Shown here one piece after another: positions 5,677 to 28,972 of a DNA stretch of 31,302 nt. Origin of the DNA: a virus; IMG/VR virus record IMGVR_UViG_3300042939_000215, positions 1 to 31,302 of that record; one strand, written 5' to 3'. Made by a program: the position numbers and the translations under genes. The first letter of the stretch is position 1. The number at the start of each line of letters is the position of its first letter. Under the pieces are notes generated by a model. That model worked only from the letters and a program-made list of their open reading frames with translations, did not search any database and was not told where the DNA came from.

Positions 5677-5985
5677 CTATTCTATTTCGCCTTCTTCACG
5701 CAGCACCCTCTCTGCCCATCTCAGCGCAGGCTCACCGCCCCAAAGCAAGTATGATATCGTTCCGCACGCAGTAGTATCGCCCGGCTCATAGTATTCGGCT
5801 GCTCTGCTCAAGTACGAGTACATACGCTTCACCGTCTGCGTTGTGATAGTCTCCCGGTTTGCCAGTTGCTGCGCTCGTATCTTGCCGACCTGCGTAGCGC
5901 ATCGGTTGTTGATCTCAGCGTTCAATCGGATTCCTCGTTCAGCCTCATCGCTTATAGCTTGAGGGTAGTCATCGTATGTTGCCAT
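5677..5985 (-). CDS. Conserved phage protein of unknown function
   Basis: This encodes 102 residues with motifs 'RGIRLNAEINNRCATQVGKI', 'VKRMYSYLSRAAEYY' and 'CGTISYLLWGGEPALRWAE'. The combination is familiar from Bacteroidota phages, where the same block occurs as a short protein or joined to head-maturation proteins; no activity is established to my knowledge. It appears all-helical and soluble. The start shares bases with the preceding stop (TAATG), and a 12-base gap with a TATATTTG box separates it from the next gene. A link to head maturation or packaging is plausible from the location just before the terminase genes but is not shown by the sequence. Confidence 0.75.
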   Translation of the reverse strand: MATYDDYPQAISDEAERGIRLNAEINNRCATQVGKIRAQQLANRETITTQTVKRMYSYLSRAAEYYEPGDTTACGTISYLLWGGEPALRWAERVLREEGEIE

Positions 5986-6563
5986 TACTTATTGCTTATG
6001 TATTGGTAGAAGTAAAGATAGTCATTGACAAGGCAATCGTCCTTGACCAGTCCTGACTCAGCCAATCGCATTGAATAGTCTCGGTCCTCGCCAAAGCTGA
6101 TAGGCTTGTATCCAATCTCCTTAGCTATGCTCGTCATCACCGGGTTGAGATGATTCAGTGGTCTTGTGTACCTCATCGCACCATCATACCTTACTGGCTT
6201 CTCTGAGTAACTGAGTCCTGCCTTATGGATGAACTCGTATGGTATCATTCCATTCGTGGTGATGATTCCTCTGAAGCCAACACCATAAGCATCACGCTTC
6301 AACCAGTATAGAATCTTGTCAACATAACTACCTGCAATGATATCATCATCATCGATAAACGCAATGTATTTCGTGGTACAGTTGTCAACTGCATACTGAC
6401 GCTTCTCACCAATCGAGAACTCACGATTATCCTTCAACACCACCACATCAACGAGATACGTAAGTTGTGGATCAAGCAATCCTCTTAGCCGTTGCAGGAA
6501 CTTCTCCCTGCCATTGATGGTCAGGATGAATATTGTCCAAAGTGCCTTAGATGGGGAAGCCAT
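5985..6563 (-). CDS. Glycosyltransferase, GT2-like (GT-A fold)
   Basis: This encodes 192 residues from the ATG at 6563, which lies just before the stop of the preceding glycosyltransferase (16-base overlap). An upstream in-frame ATG would extend it far into that gene and is less likely. The N-terminal strand 'ALWTIFILTINGREKFL', the segment 'GEKRQYAVDNCTTKYIAFID' and the acidic cluster DDDD at residues 71-74 match the nucleotide-sugar and metal site of family 2 glycosyltransferases. The C-terminal part 'EIGYKPISFGEDRDYSMRLA' resembles the ED-type acceptor-side motif. It would transfer a sugar from a nucleotide donor to an unknown acceptor: virion protein, host surface glycan or DNA. It is shorter than typical cellular enzymes, as is common in phages. 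Confidence 0.8.
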   Translation of the reverse strand: MASPSKALWTIFILTINGREKFLQRLRGLLDPQLTYLVDVVVLKDNREFSIGEKRQYAVDNCTTKYIAFIDDDDIIAGSYVDKILYWLKRDAYGVGFRGIITTNGMIPYEFIHKAGLSYSEKPVRYDGAMRYTRPLNHLNPVMTSIAKEIGYKPISFGEDRDYSMRLAESGLVKDDCLVNDYLYFYQYISNK

Positions 6564-7203
6564 TGCGCTTGCGATGTTCAAACACTCGTTGCCCATGATC
6601 CCAAGCAATCTTGCTATTCTCCTTCTGGTAGGTTCTATCCAGCTTGCTCTTGCCTACCGTGTAGTGCCTATGGTCAAACTCTAAGTTCTTATCGACCCGG
6701 TAGAATCCGTGCTTGCGTGCGGTCTCAGCGAGGTCATTGTCTGCGAACATCGAGATGTAGGCAGGATGATACAAGTACCCAAGCTTCTCATACGCCAGTC
6801 GGTTCATGATGGGTAGTGTCACTATGTCACTGCGGATTCCATCGAAGACCTGCAATACCACTGGCTCATCGCCATATTCATCGAAGCGTTCAATGAGTTT
6901 GGTATCCCAGCCAAGCGTTGGAAACATATCATCGCTCACCAGCACCAAGATATCGCCCTGACTGCGATCAGCAGCAGCGTTGCTTGCCTGCACCATGTTG
7001 GTCGAATCGCCCACGATGATAGTCACTGGCTCGTTGTCGAAGACCCGGTAGTAGTCATCGACATCAGGGTCGTTACTGGATAGGCTGATGATCCACTCGA
7101 TCTCATCGTAGTTGGTCTCAGCCATGACCCAAGCATTATGGCAGAATAGTGCCTGCTCGGACCTTCCGAAGCTGGGGTGGATTACGCTAATTCTTTTATC
7201 CAT
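6547..7203 (-). CDS. Glycosyltransferase-like protein (GT-A fold)
   Basis: This encodes 218 residues beginning 'MDKRISVIHPSFGRSEQA' at 7203, where the first beta strand of the Rossmann-like fold starts; an ATG further up would run through the terminator hairpin. Motifs: 'MVQASNAAADRSQGDILVLV' followed by SDD at 90-92, which takes the DxD position of GT2-type enzymes, and a 'FADNDLAE' element at about 170. The C-terminus ends in a basic stretch. It overlaps the next glycosyltransferase by 16 bases, so the two are probably coupled and may act in one glycosylation pathway. The acceptor is unknown. Confidence 0.78.
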   Translation of the reverse strand: MDKRISVIHPSFGRSEQALFCHNAWVMAETNYDEIEWIISLSSNDPDVDDYYRVFDNEPVTIIVGDSTNMVQASNAAADRSQGDILVLVSDDMFPTLGWDTKLIERFDEYGDEPVVLQVFDGIRSDIVTLPIMNRLAYEKLGYLYHPAYISMFADNDLAETARKHGFYRVDKNLEFDHRHYTVGKSKLDRTYQKENSKIAWDHGQRVFEHRKRNGFPI

Positions 7204-10364: not shown

Positions 10365-10508
10365 TCATCGCCATCTCCAGCCGGGTGGCACGAAGGTCGT
10401 GGTCTTGGTCTTAGCAATGCGTGTGAGAATGTCGACTGCGGTGGGAATGCCGTTGACCTGACGGCAGCGCAGGAAGCAGTTTAGCAGGTCATAGTTGATG
10501 TTTATCAT
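10365..10508 (-). CDS. Small protein of unknown function
   Basis: This encodes 47 residues whose ATG overlaps the stop of the helicase-methyltransferase gene (TAATG), so translation is probably coupled. It begins 'MININYDLLNCFLRCRQVNG', has a helical middle, 'AVDILTRIAKTKTTTF', and ends in 'PPGWRWR'. Codon composition is back to the moderate GC of most of the genome, unlike the AT-rich gene before it. I do not recognise it. A plus-strand frame over the same bases is likely a shadow. Support is from the junction and its complete reading frame; no homologue is known to me. Confidence 0.5.
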   Translation of the reverse strand: MININYDLLNCFLRCRQVNGIPTAVDILTRIAKTKTTTFVPPGWRWR

Positions 10509-12748
10509 TAGAATAGTGATAGTTGAGTTTTAGAGTTTACAGCATTTTTAAGATTTGTTTTAGCCAAATCAAAATAACTTTCTTTTAATTCAAATCCTAT
10601 TCCTTTTCTATTCATCATTATTGCCTCATAAACTTCACTACCTATTCCCATAAAAGGAGTGAATACTGTTTCATTTTGATTTGTCCATAATTGAATACCT
10701 CTATGAATTACATCAAGTTGTAATGGGCATATATGTCTTTCATCTTTTTCGTTTCGAGCTGCCATATACTGTAATGTATTACTTGGATCAATATCCATCC
10801 ATACAGGACTTGCATATTTTTGCCAAACATCAATACTAAAATTTCCATCACTTTTAAAAGTTGATAGATCTCCCGCATAATGGTCTAATTCACCTGCTAC
10901 TGGTATATCATTTATTCCCGGTTTCCTCATTGTAACTAAATAATCTGGAATACCTTGTCTGCTCATCGTACTATCTTTACACATTTGCTTATGTAAAAGT
11001 CCTATTGCTTTAGTTCTTTGCATCGCAATAACTGGATCTTTCCAAATACATACTTCGGAATGATAAATGAATCCGCATTTTTGAAATAAACGAATTATAT
11101 CACCACGAAAATCCTCAATTCCAATATAACCATGATGAGATTTAGTAGTTGGTATATTCATGCAATGAATAGAAACATTTCTGCCTGGCTTTAAAATTCT
11201 AAATATTTCATTTACTAAGAATTGAAAATGCTCAAAGAATTCATTATAATTACTACTATTCCCCATATCTTCAATATGGTCAGAATAAGTATAAAGTGAT
11301 GCAAATGGAGGACTAAATATGGAGTAATGTACAGATTCACTTTCAATTTCTTTAATTAATTGACAAGAATCTCCTCTTTTAATTTTATACCATTCATTTT
11401 CATCTGGAATTGTATCTAATTCATATTTATTGGCAAAATATCCTGCAAGGTTTGCATTGATTGCGTCACTCATTTCTTTTTGCATAATTTCAAATTGTTG
11501 TTGTTTAATTTTTATTGATTCATTGACATTTTTCATAGTGTCTGTTGTTATTAAATAAATATTGACTTCATTTCTTTGACCAAAACGATAACTGCGTCTA
11601 ATGGCTTGGTATAATCCTTCAAATGAAAAGTCCAAAGAAGCAAATATTTGATTACGGCAATTTTGATAATTAAGTCCGAACTGAGCTATTTTTGTTTTTG
11701 TTATTAAAACTCTAAATTCATTATTTGCAAATCCTAAAAGCATCCTCTCTTTATATTCTGGAGAGTCGCTTCCAGAAACTTCTACTGCTTCAGGTATTAA
11801 TTTTTTTAATAATTCACCTTCCTCATTTTGTTTAATCCATATAATAAAGTTTTCATCACTATTATTTACTATTCGTGCAGCTTCATCTAATCTTTCAATT
11901 TTAGTTAATCTTAACTCATGATTGAAGTTTGTTGCTGATATTATAGCATCATTAAATAATGATCCATTGTTTCGTTTAGGAGTTATAATTTGTTTTTCAT
12001 ATAGGTTTAATTTTGGTAAATCATACCCATCCATAACATATCCTATATCTTGTGGTTTATTTAACATAATAGACCAGCTACCAACAAACTGATAGAAAAG
12101 TTTAGTTGCATGACCTTTTAATCTCCATTTTGCAGTTTCACCTCCATCATGAATAAAATACATAGATAGCATTTGCGTTCGAGTCATAATATCTAAGAAC
12201 TCAGAATGATTTCCAAGTTCCATCGGATCATTAGGACTTGGTGTAGCAGTACAGGCTAATTTGTATGGAGTTTTGCTAAATGAGTCAAGTATTAATTTTT
12301 TAGTAGCACCTTCATAATTCTTCAAAATTGAAGATTCATCTAAAACAATACCAGAAAAAATACTACAATCTATATTTTCAAGTTGCTCATAATTTGTTAT
12401 ATAAACTCCAAATCCAAATATATCCGTCTTAAATTTTTCACAATGCAACTGAAATTTAATTGCTTCTTTTATTGTTTGACCGGCAACGGCAAGTGGAGCA
12501 AGTATTAATACAGGCTTATTTGTGTATCTACTAACTTGATTTGCCCATTCTAATTGCATTAATGTTTTACCAAGTCCACAATCAGCGAATATTGCATATT
12601 TGCCAGCTTTTAGTGCACGTTTGACTATAAACTTTTGAAAGTCAAACATTAAAGTGTTTAATTCTGAATCATCCAAATCAAATCCTGAATGAATGATGTT
12701 TTTCTGTTTGCGTTGAATAAACGCATCATAGTTTTGTTGTTGTTCCAT
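10508..12748 (-). CDS. SF2 helicase - DNA methyltransferase fusion
   Basis: This 746-residue two-domain protein has an SNF2/DEAD-type SF2 helicase at residues ~30-440: Walker A 'CGLGKT' 57-62, Walker B 'LDESS' 136-140, motif III 'TATPSPND' 167-174, and motif VI 'QAIRRSYRFGQ' 381-391. Residues ~455-746 form an amino-DNA methyltransferase with catalytic 'SPPF' at 479-482 and the SAM loop 'PFMGIGS' at 698-704. The order IV-then-I is that of beta-class N4-cytosine/N6-adenine enzymes, and SPPF favours N4-cytosine. No nuclease domain is seen, so it is not a complete type ISP restriction enzyme. It is strikingly AT-rich relative to its neighbours, suggesting recent transfer. Likely role: modification of phage DNA against host restriction, or a link between replication/repair and methylation. 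Confidence 0.88.
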   Translation of the reverse strand: MEQQQNYDAFIQRKQKNIIHSGFDLDDSELNTLMFDFQKFIVKRALKAGKYAIFADCGLGKTLMQLEWANQVSRYTNKPVLILAPLAVAGQTIKEAIKFQLHCEKFKTDIFGFGVYITNYEQLENIDCSIFSGIVLDESSILKNYEGATKKLILDSFSKTPYKLACTATPSPNDPMELGNHSEFLDIMTRTQMLSMYFIHDGGETAKWRLKGHATKLFYQFVGSWSIMLNKPQDIGYVMDGYDLPKLNLYEKQIITPKRNNGSLFNDAIISATNFNHELRLTKIERLDEAARIVNNSDENFIIWIKQNEEGELLKKLIPEAVEVSGSDSPEYKERMLLGFANNEFRVLITKTKIAQFGLNYQNCRNQIFASLDFSFEGLYQAIRRSYRFGQRNEVNIYLITTDTMKNVNESIKIKQQQFEIMQKEMSDAINANLAGYFANKYELDTIPDENEWYKIKRGDSCQLIKEIESESVHYSIFSPPFASLYTYSDHIEDMGNSSNYNEFFEHFQFLVNEIFRILKPGRNVSIHCMNIPTTKSHHGYIGIEDFRGDIIRLFQKCGFIYHSEVCIWKDPVIAMQRTKAIGLLHKQMCKDSTMSRQGIPDYLVTMRKPGINDIPVAGELDHYAGDLSTFKSDGNFSIDVWQKYASPVWMDIDPSNTLQYMAARNEKDERHICPLQLDVIHRGIQLWTNQNETVFTPFMGIGSEVYEAIMMNRKGIGFELKESYFDLAKTNLKNAVNSKTQLSLF

Positions 12749-25138: not shown

Positions 25139-25182
25139 TTTATTATAAGATATTTGAAGAGTTAAGTTTGGTACTATTTGTA

Positions 25183-25241
25183 TTGGCTTTCGCCCTGCTT
25201 TTGTTGTCCGAAGACCTTGATACTATCTTGGCTTGCGCCCT
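25183..25241 (-). promoter_or_regulatory. Three tandem tetraloop mini-hairpins in the capsid gene leader
   Basis: The 121-base gap before the capsid ATG holds three copies of a 14-base unit on the minus strand: AGGGCGCAAGCCAA (25241-25228), AGGTCTTCGGACAA (25217-25204) and AGGGCGAAAGCCAA (25196-25183). Each is AG + 3-bp stem + tetraloop + stem + AA. Stems change together (GGC/GCC, GTC/GAC, GGC/GCC) and the loops are GCAA, UUCG and GAAA, that is GNRA, UNCG and GNRA, each closed by C-G. This conserved form with compensating bases suggests a functional RNA, possibly a capsid-mRNA control or binding element. Confidence 0.6.
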
Positions 25242-25259
25242 ATCACGATGAACGATTGC

Positions 25260-26138
25260 TTATGATTGAGAACCTGCACGGAAGTCCGCAAGAGCTTTAC
25301 TCACTTGTGACTTGGCAGCAGGTGCAATAGGTTTGTTCGGTAGTGGTGTTTGTATTGGCACACCGGCAGGCGTGGGCGCAGGTGCTGGGTTGTTCACCTT
25401 GAGCAACTTCGCCTCTGCCAGCACGGACTCCGTAAATGTCTTGATATCTATTTGTTTGTTGTCAATTGTGAATGGAAGGTCAGGTGCTTCTGCATTGACA
25501 AGCTTCAAGCCATCAGCAGTGTACTGGTACTTGCCTCCTTTCTCTCTGAGTTTCTTCTCCCACAAGTTCCGTGCAGTGGCTACGGTGACATCCTTGTCAA
25601 GGTCAAGTGCATAGTTGTAACTGCCGAACATCCCTTGAAGTTCCTTGTCGGTCAACTGAGATTGCCACTGGCTATTGACTGTCTCGACATCCTTCTTGCG
25701 AGCTTCTTTCTCTGCATTATAGAGTGAGGAGAGTTCGTTGATTTTGTCAACCAACGCTTTCTTCTCGCCTCCAGTCGCAGTGATTGCTCTCTCTCTTGCA
25801 TCCGATATTGCTTTCGCCAATAGCGGAATACGGTTGTAAGTAGATTGCTCACCAAGAATTGCTGACTTGGTTTCGTCATCGAACTCATACGATTCAAGTA
25901 CGTCTTTGATTTTGGTATCAATGGTCGACAAAGCAGTTGCAGTGAAGTGCTTCTTCACCACTGGATTGTACTTGGCTTCGTCCTCAGTCATCAGTTTGCT
26001 CTGCATGGCAGATGCAATAGTTGACGGAACTTGCACGCTCGATAGCGCAGGATTGGTGACCACTGACTTCAATGATTCGTCAGCGTTGTCAATACCTACA
26101 CGGTCAGCAATTGATTGGATAAATTCAGCTAAATTCAT
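25260..26138 (-). CDS. Scaffold protein
   Basis: This 292-residue, Lys/Glu/Ala-rich, largely helical protein has a coiled coil about 110-165 ('KALVDKINELSSLYNAEKEA') and a proline-rich linker about 255-280. The C-terminal end ('SQVSKALADFRAGSQS') is a short basic helix as in capsid-binding tails of scaffolds. It is placed directly before the major capsid gene and after a small gene whose end it overlaps (ATGA), as is usual. It directs prohead assembly and is then lost. No protease motif is visible. Confidence 0.8.
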   Translation of the reverse strand: MNLAEFIQSIADRVGIDNADESLKSVVTNPALSSVQVPSTIASAMQSKLMTEDEAKYNPVVKKHFTATALSTIDTKIKDVLESYEFDDETKSAILGEQSTYNRIPLLAKAISDARERAITATGGEKKALVDKINELSSLYNAEKEARKKDVETVNSQWQSQLTDKELQGMFGSYNYALDLDKDVTVATARNLWEKKLREKGGKYQYTADGLKLVNAEAPDLPFTIDNKQIDIKTFTESVLAEAKLLKVNNPAPAPTPAGVPIQTPLPNKPIAPAAKSQVSKALADFRAGSQS

Positions 26139-26347
26139 ATTTGTTTTTCCGATTTTCTCGGCTTGGTTTTACTCATATCGATGACAGTCTCCTTGATGAC
26201 TTTCACTTCGGAGTTCACTGGCAGGATGTCGCAGACACCATCGATGCCTTGTTTCATCAGCATAATCCTGACTTCATTTTCATTGACAGATGGGAACTGA
26301 AACCATTCCTTGCCGTCTCTCATTACTTTACAAAATTTCTGATCCAT
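26135..26347 (-). CDS. Small protein in head gene cluster
   Basis: This encodes 70 residues. It starts 'MDQKFCKVMRDGKEWFQFPS', is strand-rich, and ends with a basic, probably flexible tail ('MSKTKPRKSEKQI'). No family was recognised. The ATG follows the MuF-like gene's stop by 16 bases that include TATATTTG, ending six bases before it, possibly an internal promoter for scaffold and capsid; a -33 element is not evident. Overlap with the scaffold start (ATGA) suggests coupled translation and a head role. Confidence 0.6.
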   Translation of the reverse strand: MDQKFCKVMRDGKEWFQFPSVNENEVRIMLMKQGIDGVCDILPVNSEVKVIKETVIDMSKTKPRKSEKQI

Positions 26348-26363
26348 ACTTTACAAATATACA

Positions 26364-27290
26364 CTACAAATTAGCGAATTCGTCACGCAATTCTTTAGGC
26401 ACTACGGCTGCGCTGACCGGGTATAATTGGTGATTGCAGTTGTATCCTCCCCGATTGATGCGGAAATTAGCAGCATTCGTGCCTGGTATCATGCCTTGTG
26501 GCAGTCCAGTCTTCTCGTAGATTGGCACTCGCTCCCCACATACATAACCATTGACGATATCATCGAGCTGGCTGCGGTGGATATATTCCATGCACTTGCT
26601 ACGCTTGGCTTGTATCAGCGCATCGCAGATAGGTCTGCTGGTGTCCTGCAGGCTTCCATCGTATTTGTACCATACCAAGCCAAGATCATCCGTTAGAACT
26701 GCGTTGTAGTTGGCTGAGTATTGGTTCAGTGAGTCAGTGACAATCTGCTTAGTATACCTCACTAATCTGCCATCTCCAGCATCGGTGTCAAGCATAAATT
26801 CTCTGACCTGCTCGATGAACTCTGCACGGCTTCCGCCAGTTGTCACGTTCTTGACAAGTATGTCTCTCACCGGGTCTACGAAGTTCACCCCTATCGCATC
26901 CTGACCAAGCTGGTCGACTACGGCTTCCTTTGCAAGGGATTGAATCTGCTCCATCACACTCGGCACTTTGAACTTGCCTACCGTTGCAGTGAAGTATTGA
27001 TTCTGAAGTTTGGTCAGTTCATTGTAGTCCTCCAGCAATAGGTCGAGATCGTCTTGATACTTCTTATCAAAGATGACCCGGTTCAGTTCGTCCTTTATGC
27101 GTGATATTGTCTTAATGTTCTTAGCAGTTGGCTTAATCTTACCATCCGCATCGGTATCGAGGTCAGCAGTAAGATTCAGCACCACATCATAGGACTGCCG
27201 TTGGAGTTGAGGCATACGCTCATTCCATTGGCTGACACGCATCTCAATCAGCTCAGTGATTTTCTCTATGATTTGTGCTTGGGTAGCCAT
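26364..27290 (-). CDS. Head morphogenesis protein, MuF-like
   Basis: This encodes 308 residues. An N-terminal helical half (to ~170) precedes a compact C-terminal domain with 'RYTKQIVTDSLNQYSANYNA', 'WYKYDGSLQDTSRPICDALI' and the cysteine-histidine motif 'GGYNCNHQLYPV' near 275-290. That motif is typical of Mu gpF / SPP1 gp7-like minor head proteins. In the family the protein sits at the portal and helps genome ejection or head assembly. The ATG shares a base with the portal stop, which is the standard gene order. Confidence 0.82.
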   Translation of the reverse strand: MATQAQIIEKITELIEMRVSQWNERMPQLQRQSYDVVLNLTADLDTDADGKIKPTAKNIKTISRIKDELNRVIFDKKYQDDLDLLLEDYNELTKLQNQYFTATVGKFKVPSVMEQIQSLAKEAVVDQLGQDAIGVNFVDPVRDILVKNVTTGGSRAEFIEQVREFMLDTDAGDGRLVRYTKQIVTDSLNQYSANYNAVLTDDLGLVWYKYDGSLQDTSRPICDALIQAKRSKCMEYIHRSQLDDIVNGYVCGERVPIYEKTGLPQGMIPGTNAANFRINRGGYNCNHQLYPVSAAVVPKELRDEFANL

Positions 27291-28972
27291 TACAATCCAG
27301 CATCAGCAGCAGTCGGGGCAGGAGAAGGCAGGACCCTGCGTTCCTGCGAATATCTGAGCATCACCGCCATCTGGTCAGCGTAGCTGAGATTGGCAAAGTC
27401 CTGCACCTCTTCCAAAGCTCTTGTCACGAATTTATTGATGTTAGCGTGTATTATGAGGTCGTTCTGGTCAATAGCGTTATACATCCGTTGCAGACTGATG
27501 TTCTCCTCCGGTACTCCTGCGAATGGGTCAAGCTTCAGCTTGAGTACCACTAAGTCCTTCACCTCTGAATCGTTGAACTTCTTGCCTGCGAGTTCTATCT
27601 GTGCAGCGTTGATGATTGCCGGGTCAACCTTTGCATTCACCATTGATGTCAGCTCATCCACAAGCACCTTGCCCGATAGCATATCGAACCTCTCAGGCAC
27701 TGGTATATATGGCAGCAGCGCACGGATGTCGCTGGTCACTCCTGAATATCTCCATGCACAGATATCGTAAATAATCTCATCCATAATGCGTACGATGTCC
27801 TCTGCGATGCTATGAACAAACGAGTACAACTCCTCACGGTCAACTTGCTTGGCAACACCTGACTGACTCAGCGGTGTATCAGCAAGGAACTCCATGTTGA
27901 TAGCACTCAGCGCATCGTAGATATGCTGGCGAATGCGCTCCTCTTGAAGCTTGGCGATGTCGGTCTGCTTCTGTACGTAACCGATGGGAGGCGTTGGTAT
28001 CGCAGGATCTCCCGGTCTTGGTGCTGGCAGGACAAGATGCTCAAACGGATTCAATGGTAATAGTCCTTTGCCTGAACAAGATGGACACTTGATAGGTGCT
28101 GAGTTCTCCTTTGGAATCTCTCCAAGACCCTTGCATCGTCCACACTGTTGAGGCTGCATGGACCACATAGTAGAGTGGATGTGCTGCACGATCTCAGCCT
28201 GCAAGTCACTGTACTCACGCAGAGCCTCGTTCATCTTAGGCACGATACCGCTGATGCGTGACTCATACAACGCACGATCCTTGTAGTTCTCGATGATCAT
28301 GCCATACAGATGGCGCACTGGAATATAACCAAGCGTATTGACCATCTGAAATACCTCACGCACTGCGTAATCTTTGACCTCAAACTTCTGAATGATATCA
28401 GGCTGAATGACCCAATACAAATCTTCATCGTGTTCCTTCAACACATAGTACAATCCTTCCTTGTAGTCAAGCACATCTTCTGAATTGAAGATCATCGGAT
28501 AAGGCTCGTAGTATTGATTGTCTTGCTTCTCCCAGTTGGTAGGCAGAGTCAGCACCGCAGCATTCGCATCGATGAGATACTGCTTGAAGCACACGCTGAA
28601 CATCCAATTGGTGATACTACCATTGCGAGGCATCTTATACATCAGATACTTCTCAGGACTCTCGTCTTCAGCAATCACCGCAGGCAGTTCATTCTGGAAT
28701 GAAATCATCCAGTCCTGACTCTTGCGAATCTTCATGAGTGAGTTGTAGACCTTCGTGAAGACTGGCTTCGTGATCGGCACGAAGATTTTCTTGCGGTAGT
28801 GCTTTATCTCATCACTCTCGGCAGGTCTTCGCTGGTCAATCAGCTCACCGGGATACTCACCATCTGCATGGGTCTCCAGCTCTTCGTACATTTCTACGGC
28901 ATCATCGTAGTCTTCGTGTCGAAGACCTTGCATCAGGTACGGTTCAAGAAACGAGGGGGAGATTGCTGGCAT
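27290..28972 (-). CDS. Portal protein with zinc-ribbon-like insert
   Basis: This encodes 560 residues. The dodecameric portal sits at one head vertex; DNA enters and leaves through it. The N-terminal half has 'MYEELETHADGEYPGELIDQ' and basic helices, the C-terminal half long helices ('IYDALSAINMEFLADTPLSQ', 'SIAEDIVRIMDEIIYDI') as in clip/stem regions. A DnaJ-type insert CxxCxGxG-x15-CxxCxGxG occurs at 277-303 ('CGRCKGLGEI', 'CPSCSGKGLL'), very likely binding zinc. Similar inserts occur in portals of some Bacteroidota phages to my knowledge. Identity from order and overall form. Confidence 0.8.
   Translation of the reverse strand: MPAISPSFLEPYLMQGLRHEDYDDAVEMYEELETHADGEYPGELIDQRRPAESDEIKHYRKKIFVPITKPVFTKVYNSLMKIRKSQDWMISFQNELPAVIAEDESPEKYLMYKMPRNGSITNWMFSVCFKQYLIDANAAVLTLPTNWEKQDNQYYEPYPMIFNSEDVLDYKEGLYYVLKEHDEDLYWVIQPDIIQKFEVKDYAVREVFQMVNTLGYIPVRHLYGMIIENYKDRALYESRISGIVPKMNEALREYSDLQAEIVQHIHSTMWSMQPQQCGRCKGLGEIPKENSAPIKCPSCSGKGLLPLNPFEHLVLPAPRPGDPAIPTPPIGYVQKQTDIAKLQEERIRQHIYDALSAINMEFLADTPLSQSGVAKQVDREELYSFVHSIAEDIVRIMDEIIYDICAWRYSGVTSDIRALLPYIPVPERFDMLSGKVLVDELTSMVNAKVDPAIINAAQIELAGKKFNDSEVKDLVVLKLKLDPFAGVPEENISLQRMYNAIDQNDLIIHANINKFVTRALEEVQDFANLSYADQMAVMLRYSQERRVLPSPAPTAADAGL

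Follow-up and report, generated by a model that had tools for sequence, protein, structure and literature searches.

The window, by which we mean the whole stretch of DNA analysed, is a single viral contig of 31,302 bases that carries, on its minus strand, a gene for a 375-aa protein and, 5′ of it, a noncoding leader with three mini-hairpins (Table 1). The protein has no Pfam or PHROG match. Structure prediction from 20 close homologues was of too low quality to use (pLDDT 39), and an AlphaFold model from 27 diverse homologues reached pLDDT 76 and pTM 0.78; a Foldseek search of the PDB with the latter found HK97-fold proteins, namely phage capsids and encapsulins (best E 6e-9, TM ~0.42). On this medium-confidence model we take the ORF as the major capsid gene, which agrees with the identity proposed for it in the initial annotation made from the bare sequence. 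The genes upstream of it encode a portal protein (phrog_7376), a 308-aa head-module ORF and a 292-aa ORF that had no family match in family-model searches, and whose putative scaffold role follows from gene order. In most relatives the capsid frame is open for no more than a few codons 5′ of the AUG (374–388 aa; 403 aa in G008 and G012).

Table 1. Features of the capsid gene and its leader in the window.
Feature	Position	Strand	Basis
Major capsid protein gene (predicted), 375 aa	24011..25138	(-)	predicted fold; position after portal and scaffold-position ORF
Noncoding leader, 121 nt, houses the array	25139..25259	(-)	gap between the 292-aa and 375-aa ORFs
46-nt tract from hairpin 3 to AUG, low G+C	25139..25184	(-)	length kept across clades
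Hairpin 3, AUG-proximal, GGC-GAAA-GCC	25185..25194	(-)	sequence; covariance-model match, E 0.003 over 389 kb
Hairpin 2, GUC-UUCG-GAC	25206..25215	(-)	sequence; covariance-model match, E 0.84 over 389 kb
Hairpin 1, GGC-GCAA-GCC	25230..25239	(-)	sequence; covariance-model match, E 0.011 over 389 kb
Upstream ORF in scaffold position, 292 aa	25260..26138	(-)	conserved in 15/15 records compared

Three other regions of the window deserve mention. Residues 276–306 of the portal protein (27290–28972, minus strand) weakly match the zinc-binding Anti-TRAP (E 4.6e-6, under the curated cut-off); an SNF2-like helicase is fused to an N4/N6 DNA methylase at 10508–12748 (minus strand); and two ORFs resemble glycosyltransferase family 2 (5985–6608 and 6547–7203, both minus strand), the family of the second being present in most of the larger array-bearing genomes compared.

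Each of the three hairpins in the leader has a 3-bp stem and a tetraloop, with AG 5′ and AA 3′ of it, and their starts are spaced by 24 and then 21 nt. The initial annotation had described these compensated stems, stable loops, flanks and spacing exactly. It had also proposed folding of the leader as a check; the minimum free energy of the whole leader is ordinary (z = 0.11 versus shuffles). Because the hairpin signal is local, whole-leader energy is uninformative, and we abandoned it as a misleading test. The local mini-hairpins of the window leader, however, do stand out. Only 2 of 60 dinucleotide shuffles were as good, and the local-hairpin statistic (z = -3.7) was equally low in 2 of the 65 other windows of the record. 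The 3-bp hairpins, with energies of -1.3 to -3.5 kcal/mol, are marginal when taken alone.

Searches with the capsid protein gathered ~75 contigs, and in ~65 of them the leader keeps an array of 2–4 mini-hairpins, at capsid identities down to ~45%. Every array-clade leader that was read has tandem mini-hairpins, ~55 of these belonging to close to intermediate relatives and the others including deep branches, namely L047 (three units), the L058/L115/L117 group, L126 and L163. In L117 the units are GACC-GAAA-GGUC, GGUC-AUCA-GACC and UGUC-GAAA-GACA; in L115 only the hairpins at the two ends of the array can be made out clearly. A tandem array is kept in relatives, the number of units being 2–4 and not the fixed three of the initial annotation. 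When 27 capsid proteins were placed in a tree, a single branch (support 99/98, recovered in 200/200 bootstrap trees) split the array rows from those without (L156, L164, L165, L166, L169, L170 and L179). The latter have no comparable leader, the capsid gene coming directly next or after a short gap, and these array-less outgroups have the same gene order; depending on the root of the capsid tree, the array was gained once or lost once. A single hairpin 5′ of a head-region gene was seen in two Bacteroides phages, BK649P1 (L190, 7583–7637) and BF486P1 (L191, 7466–7514), with 6 bp and GCGA in one phage and 3 bp and GATA in the other, which hints at a possibly broader occurrence of small hairpins 5′ of structural genes among the phages of Bacteroidota.

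We found that the stems covary across the family. In 32 distinct units with 3-bp stems and 4-nt loops, picked because they form hairpins and taken from related rows, 96/96 cells hold standard pairs and 17 of these cells show two-sided changes. The covariation score of the stems was 0.578 against 0.089 in shuffles, none of 500 shuffles reached it, and the signal was lost when the partner was slid. A whole-leader shuffle test, which is free of unit choice, gave a similar picture for most of 23 leaders with 60 shuffles each, and a far stronger case in relatives than in the window: 15 had 0 or 1 shuffle as good and 6 had 2–4, with L022 (13/60) and L027 (6/60) unremarkable. The selection on RNA shape claimed in the initial annotation, a claim that stood to fail if relatives kept neither stems nor loops at this site, is thus borne out, with covarying stems in 20-odd lineages. 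The array is a real RNA element, the hairpins of which are kept while nearly every base has changed.

The loops reveal what is being kept. Stable GNRA or UNCG loops cap 24 of the 32 distinct units with 3-bp stems and only 2 of ~40 stems of at least 4 bp (Fisher p 3e-10, from rows that are not independent). Stable tetraloops were therefore correctly recognised on the 3-bp stems, whereas longer stems carry arbitrary loops. Since short stems keep stable loops and longer ones take any, the sequences indicate that selection acts on the stability of the hairpin and not on the sequence of its loop.

The array is bound to the start of the capsid gene in a regular geometry. From start to start the hairpins are 17–31 nt apart (median 23), with linkers of mostly 8–17 nt, and the last hairpin ends 29–52 nt before the AUG (median ~45.5) in clades that differ at half of the capsid residues. 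Because this distance holds over divergent clades, we conclude that the array is positioned relative to the start codon; none of these hairpins occur in the intervening tract. The bases flanking the stem are G/A in 50 of 77 distinct units and U/U in 12, in leaders whose overall composition is 15% G and 40% A. The AG/AA flanks seen in the window are thus conserved, with the exception of one clade where UU/UU replaces them. As a rule the 3′ side reads AAYA for the window's clade and UUAYA for the L058 group, and L126 has both. The flank consensus could come from stacking energy and not from recognition. We do not claim a sheared G.A helix cap for the G/A flanks, as the published table of such caps appears to give a strand orientation opposite to the one here (PMC3972237); stacking of the 3′ A is the safer reading.

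Short segments recur on both sides of the hairpins. In the tract that leads from the last hairpin to the AUG, several leaders, the window's among them, share a AACUUCUUAAU-like stretch. In the same tract of the L030 and L041 leaders UUAACUUUA is present, the sequence of the T7 gene 10 leader enhancer. These likenesses may be due to chance in A+U-rich DNA. In the window's clade (leaders of L022, L027, L028, L029, L030, L032 and L034) a conserved CUGAUGCAAG or UCGUGAUA segment lies 5–20 nt 5′ of hairpin 1, and could be a mini-ORF start, a processing site or a promoter element.

Tandem units appeared at the capsid leader and nowhere else in the first 15 records fetched (11/15; in the remaining records the leader array fails the strict flank rule of the scan). 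A covariance model of the unit, run over 389 kb, placed its 17 best matches all at capsid leaders, the first match elsewhere having E 1.2. A pattern of a single unit plus ATG matched viral_contigs 35 times, and the 12 matches outside the capsid-leader family, mostly in coding DNA, were judged to be chance; a two-hairpin pattern matched family members only. By the local-hairpin statistic, the leader was extreme in five of six genomes, where 0–2 of 37–83 other windows were as low, and unremarkable in G002 (5/80). Unit-based scans, which would miss arrays elsewhere with quite different flanks, place the array at the capsid leader alone in the genomes that they covered.

In some divergent members the array can be placed in the transcript. 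L117 and L058 have an intrinsic terminator and a TAnnTTTG promoter directly 5′ of the leader, L126 is alike, and in L047 a TAnnTTTG promoter stands 5′ of the leader, after an inserted FkbM-type methyltransferase gene. Because the promoter is just upstream, the array belongs to the 5′ UTR in these members, and it begins ~10–25 nt after the expected transcript start (estimated from the promoter position). The inserted ORF of L047 (2507–3244, minus strand; FkbM-like on reading of its sequence) runs in reverse and separates the scaffold-position ORF from the capsid gene; the latter retains the hairpin leader, which has a promoter of its own. In the window's clade no TTG-N-TAnnTTTG-type promoter was found directly upstream of the leader, and transcription there probably reads through from further upstream or begins at a promoter of another type. 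The promoters of the divergent members also bear on the host. No relatives of the capsid protein were found among named phages, or in two scans of cellular genomes, and the portal matches in named phages are distant (21–24% identity) and all in Polaribacter or Bacteroides phages. These nearest portal relatives, together with the TAnnTTTG promoters, make a Bacteroidota host likely.

Rfam 15 gave no covariance-model match above the gathering threshold on either strand of the window, and no published description of such an array was found in the literature searched, the coverage of which was partial; the array is apparently undescribed. It is a cis-acting structured leader RNA in the broad sense, with conserved covarying RNA structure 5′ of one orthologous gene, and is in no named family. 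The leader of T7 gene 10, a tailed-phage leader that like ours precedes the major capsid gene, is generally regarded as raising expression; it works with a strong Shine-Dalgarno sequence and has no covarying hairpin array, and the likeness is one of position. CsrA/RsmA sites are likewise tandem small hairpins in leaders, binding one protein with avidity, but carry GGA (ANGGA) in their loops, whereas the loops of the array units tabulated are without GGA (it is present in some stems, e.g. in the L037 group). Phage T4 intercistronic CUUCGG/GNRA hairpins share the short stems with exceptionally stable tetraloops but are scattered singly, whereas the array is ordered and tied to one gene. The boxB hairpin of lambda nut has ~5 bp and a GNRA-like pentaloop after boxA, unlike the variable loops and stem lengths here, and ToxI-like RNAs of type III toxin-antitoxin systems consist of near-identical tandem repeats of ~35–45 nt before a toxin endoribonuclease gene, whereas our units differ in sequence and precede a capsid gene. 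A small hairpin also makes up the operator of the phage T4 gene 43 (DNA polymerase), placed in the mRNA leader ~40 bases before the start codon (PMC3014915). It is, however, a single hairpin with conserved loop bases contacted by the protein, and the operator reaches into the ribosome site, whereas the array has 2–4 hairpins with freely varying loops and ends well before the AUG.

The array probably sets how much capsid protein is made. As our leading though tentative reading, held at a little under even confidence, we propose a cis-acting 5′ UTR element that raises or tunes capsid translation. Two to four compact hairpins selected for stability, with conserved flanks, would stand at a set distance 5′ of the ribosome docking site and act post-transcriptionally, raising or tuning initiation on a capsid message without a Shine-Dalgarno sequence. 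Two points favour a leader that raises expression. The array does not cover the start region and so is in a poor position to block it, and initiation in Bacteroidia relies on upstream adenines and low structure in place of Shine-Dalgarno pairing (PMC9976891), a need with which the hairpin-free tract before the AUG agrees. Less certainly, each hairpin with its flanks would dock a trans-acting RNA-binding partner, as the conserved flanks and repeated units suggest, and the copies would add avidity; the 30S platform, a host RNA-binding protein and a late phage protein are candidate kinds of partner. A bolder form of the proposal, in which the leader recruits the ribosome or a protein in place of the missing Shine-Dalgarno sequence, is recognised by its shape and flanks and drives very high capsid translation, we regard as doubtful.

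The hairpins could alternatively stabilise the mRNA, hindering 5′-end-dependent or scanning ribonucleases so that the capsid message outlives the rest of the operon. Selection for stability rather than loop sequence fits such a role, as does an array that starts near the inferred transcript start where a promoter is recognisable, and a number of hairpins free to vary is what additive barriers would predict. However, many of the stems are weak, having just 3 bp, a barrier needs no conserved flanks, and the array is tied to the AUG and not to the transcript start; we consider stabilisation unlikely, if well above negligible.

In a translational feedback operator, the idea put forward in the initial annotation, the capsid, scaffold or another late protein would bind the units and repress or balance capsid synthesis; protection of the mRNA 5′ end and an effect on the capsid:scaffold ratio were further hypothetical roles named there. 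The units of one genome share a flank consensus though their stems and loops differ, and in one clade the flanks are U/U in place of G/A, as if they tracked a partner. Yet the hairpins stop short of the AUG and leave the start region uncovered, a position that lends no support to plain blocking of the ribosome site, and the loop bases, through which the gp43 operator is contacted, are unconserved here. The sole protein candidate, a small head-module ORF (26135–26347), goes with array genomes and was missed in one array-less genome compared; it is a weak candidate for a trans partner, since divergence alone could explain its absence. Overall, we find feedback rather improbable.

We think it very improbable that the nascent hairpins modify RNA polymerase in the late operon, as an antitermination or pausing element comparable to nut or put RNAs. 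In L058, L117 and L126 the array does head the capsid-tail operon, right behind a terminator and promoter, but most members carry it inside the operon, where no promoter was found, its placing goes with the AUG, and outgroups of the same gene order are without it. A leader peptide was rejected and retains almost no credence: in leaders near the window's a GTG or ATG (CGTGATA / ATGCAAG) opens short frames through the hairpins, such as GTG ATA GGG CGC AAG CCA AGA TAG, but the frames vary from ~4 to 30 codons with no conserved peptide, and the divergent L058, L117 and L126 keep the hairpins with no ATG upstream of the array seen by eye. Equally slight is the prospect of a packaging or replication hairpin in the DNA: compensated inverted repeats would be kept there too, but the array invariably sits on the capsid gene's sense strand, its distance to the AUG is fixed, and its GNRA/UNCG loops are RNA-stabilising. 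The same holds for chance, which covariation over deep clades excludes.

Whatever its mode of action, the array places a structured RNA before the most heavily made phage protein, in uncultured phages of probable Bacteroidota hosts, and its trade-off between loop and stem is a clean natural demonstration of stability selection on very small hairpins. Since these hosts generally do without Shine-Dalgarno pairing, high translation of the best-expressed genes is a real question in them. A recruiting leader, if true, would represent a new type of translation enhancer in bacteria, and the array, if it enhances expression, could serve as a part for Bacteroidota genetics.
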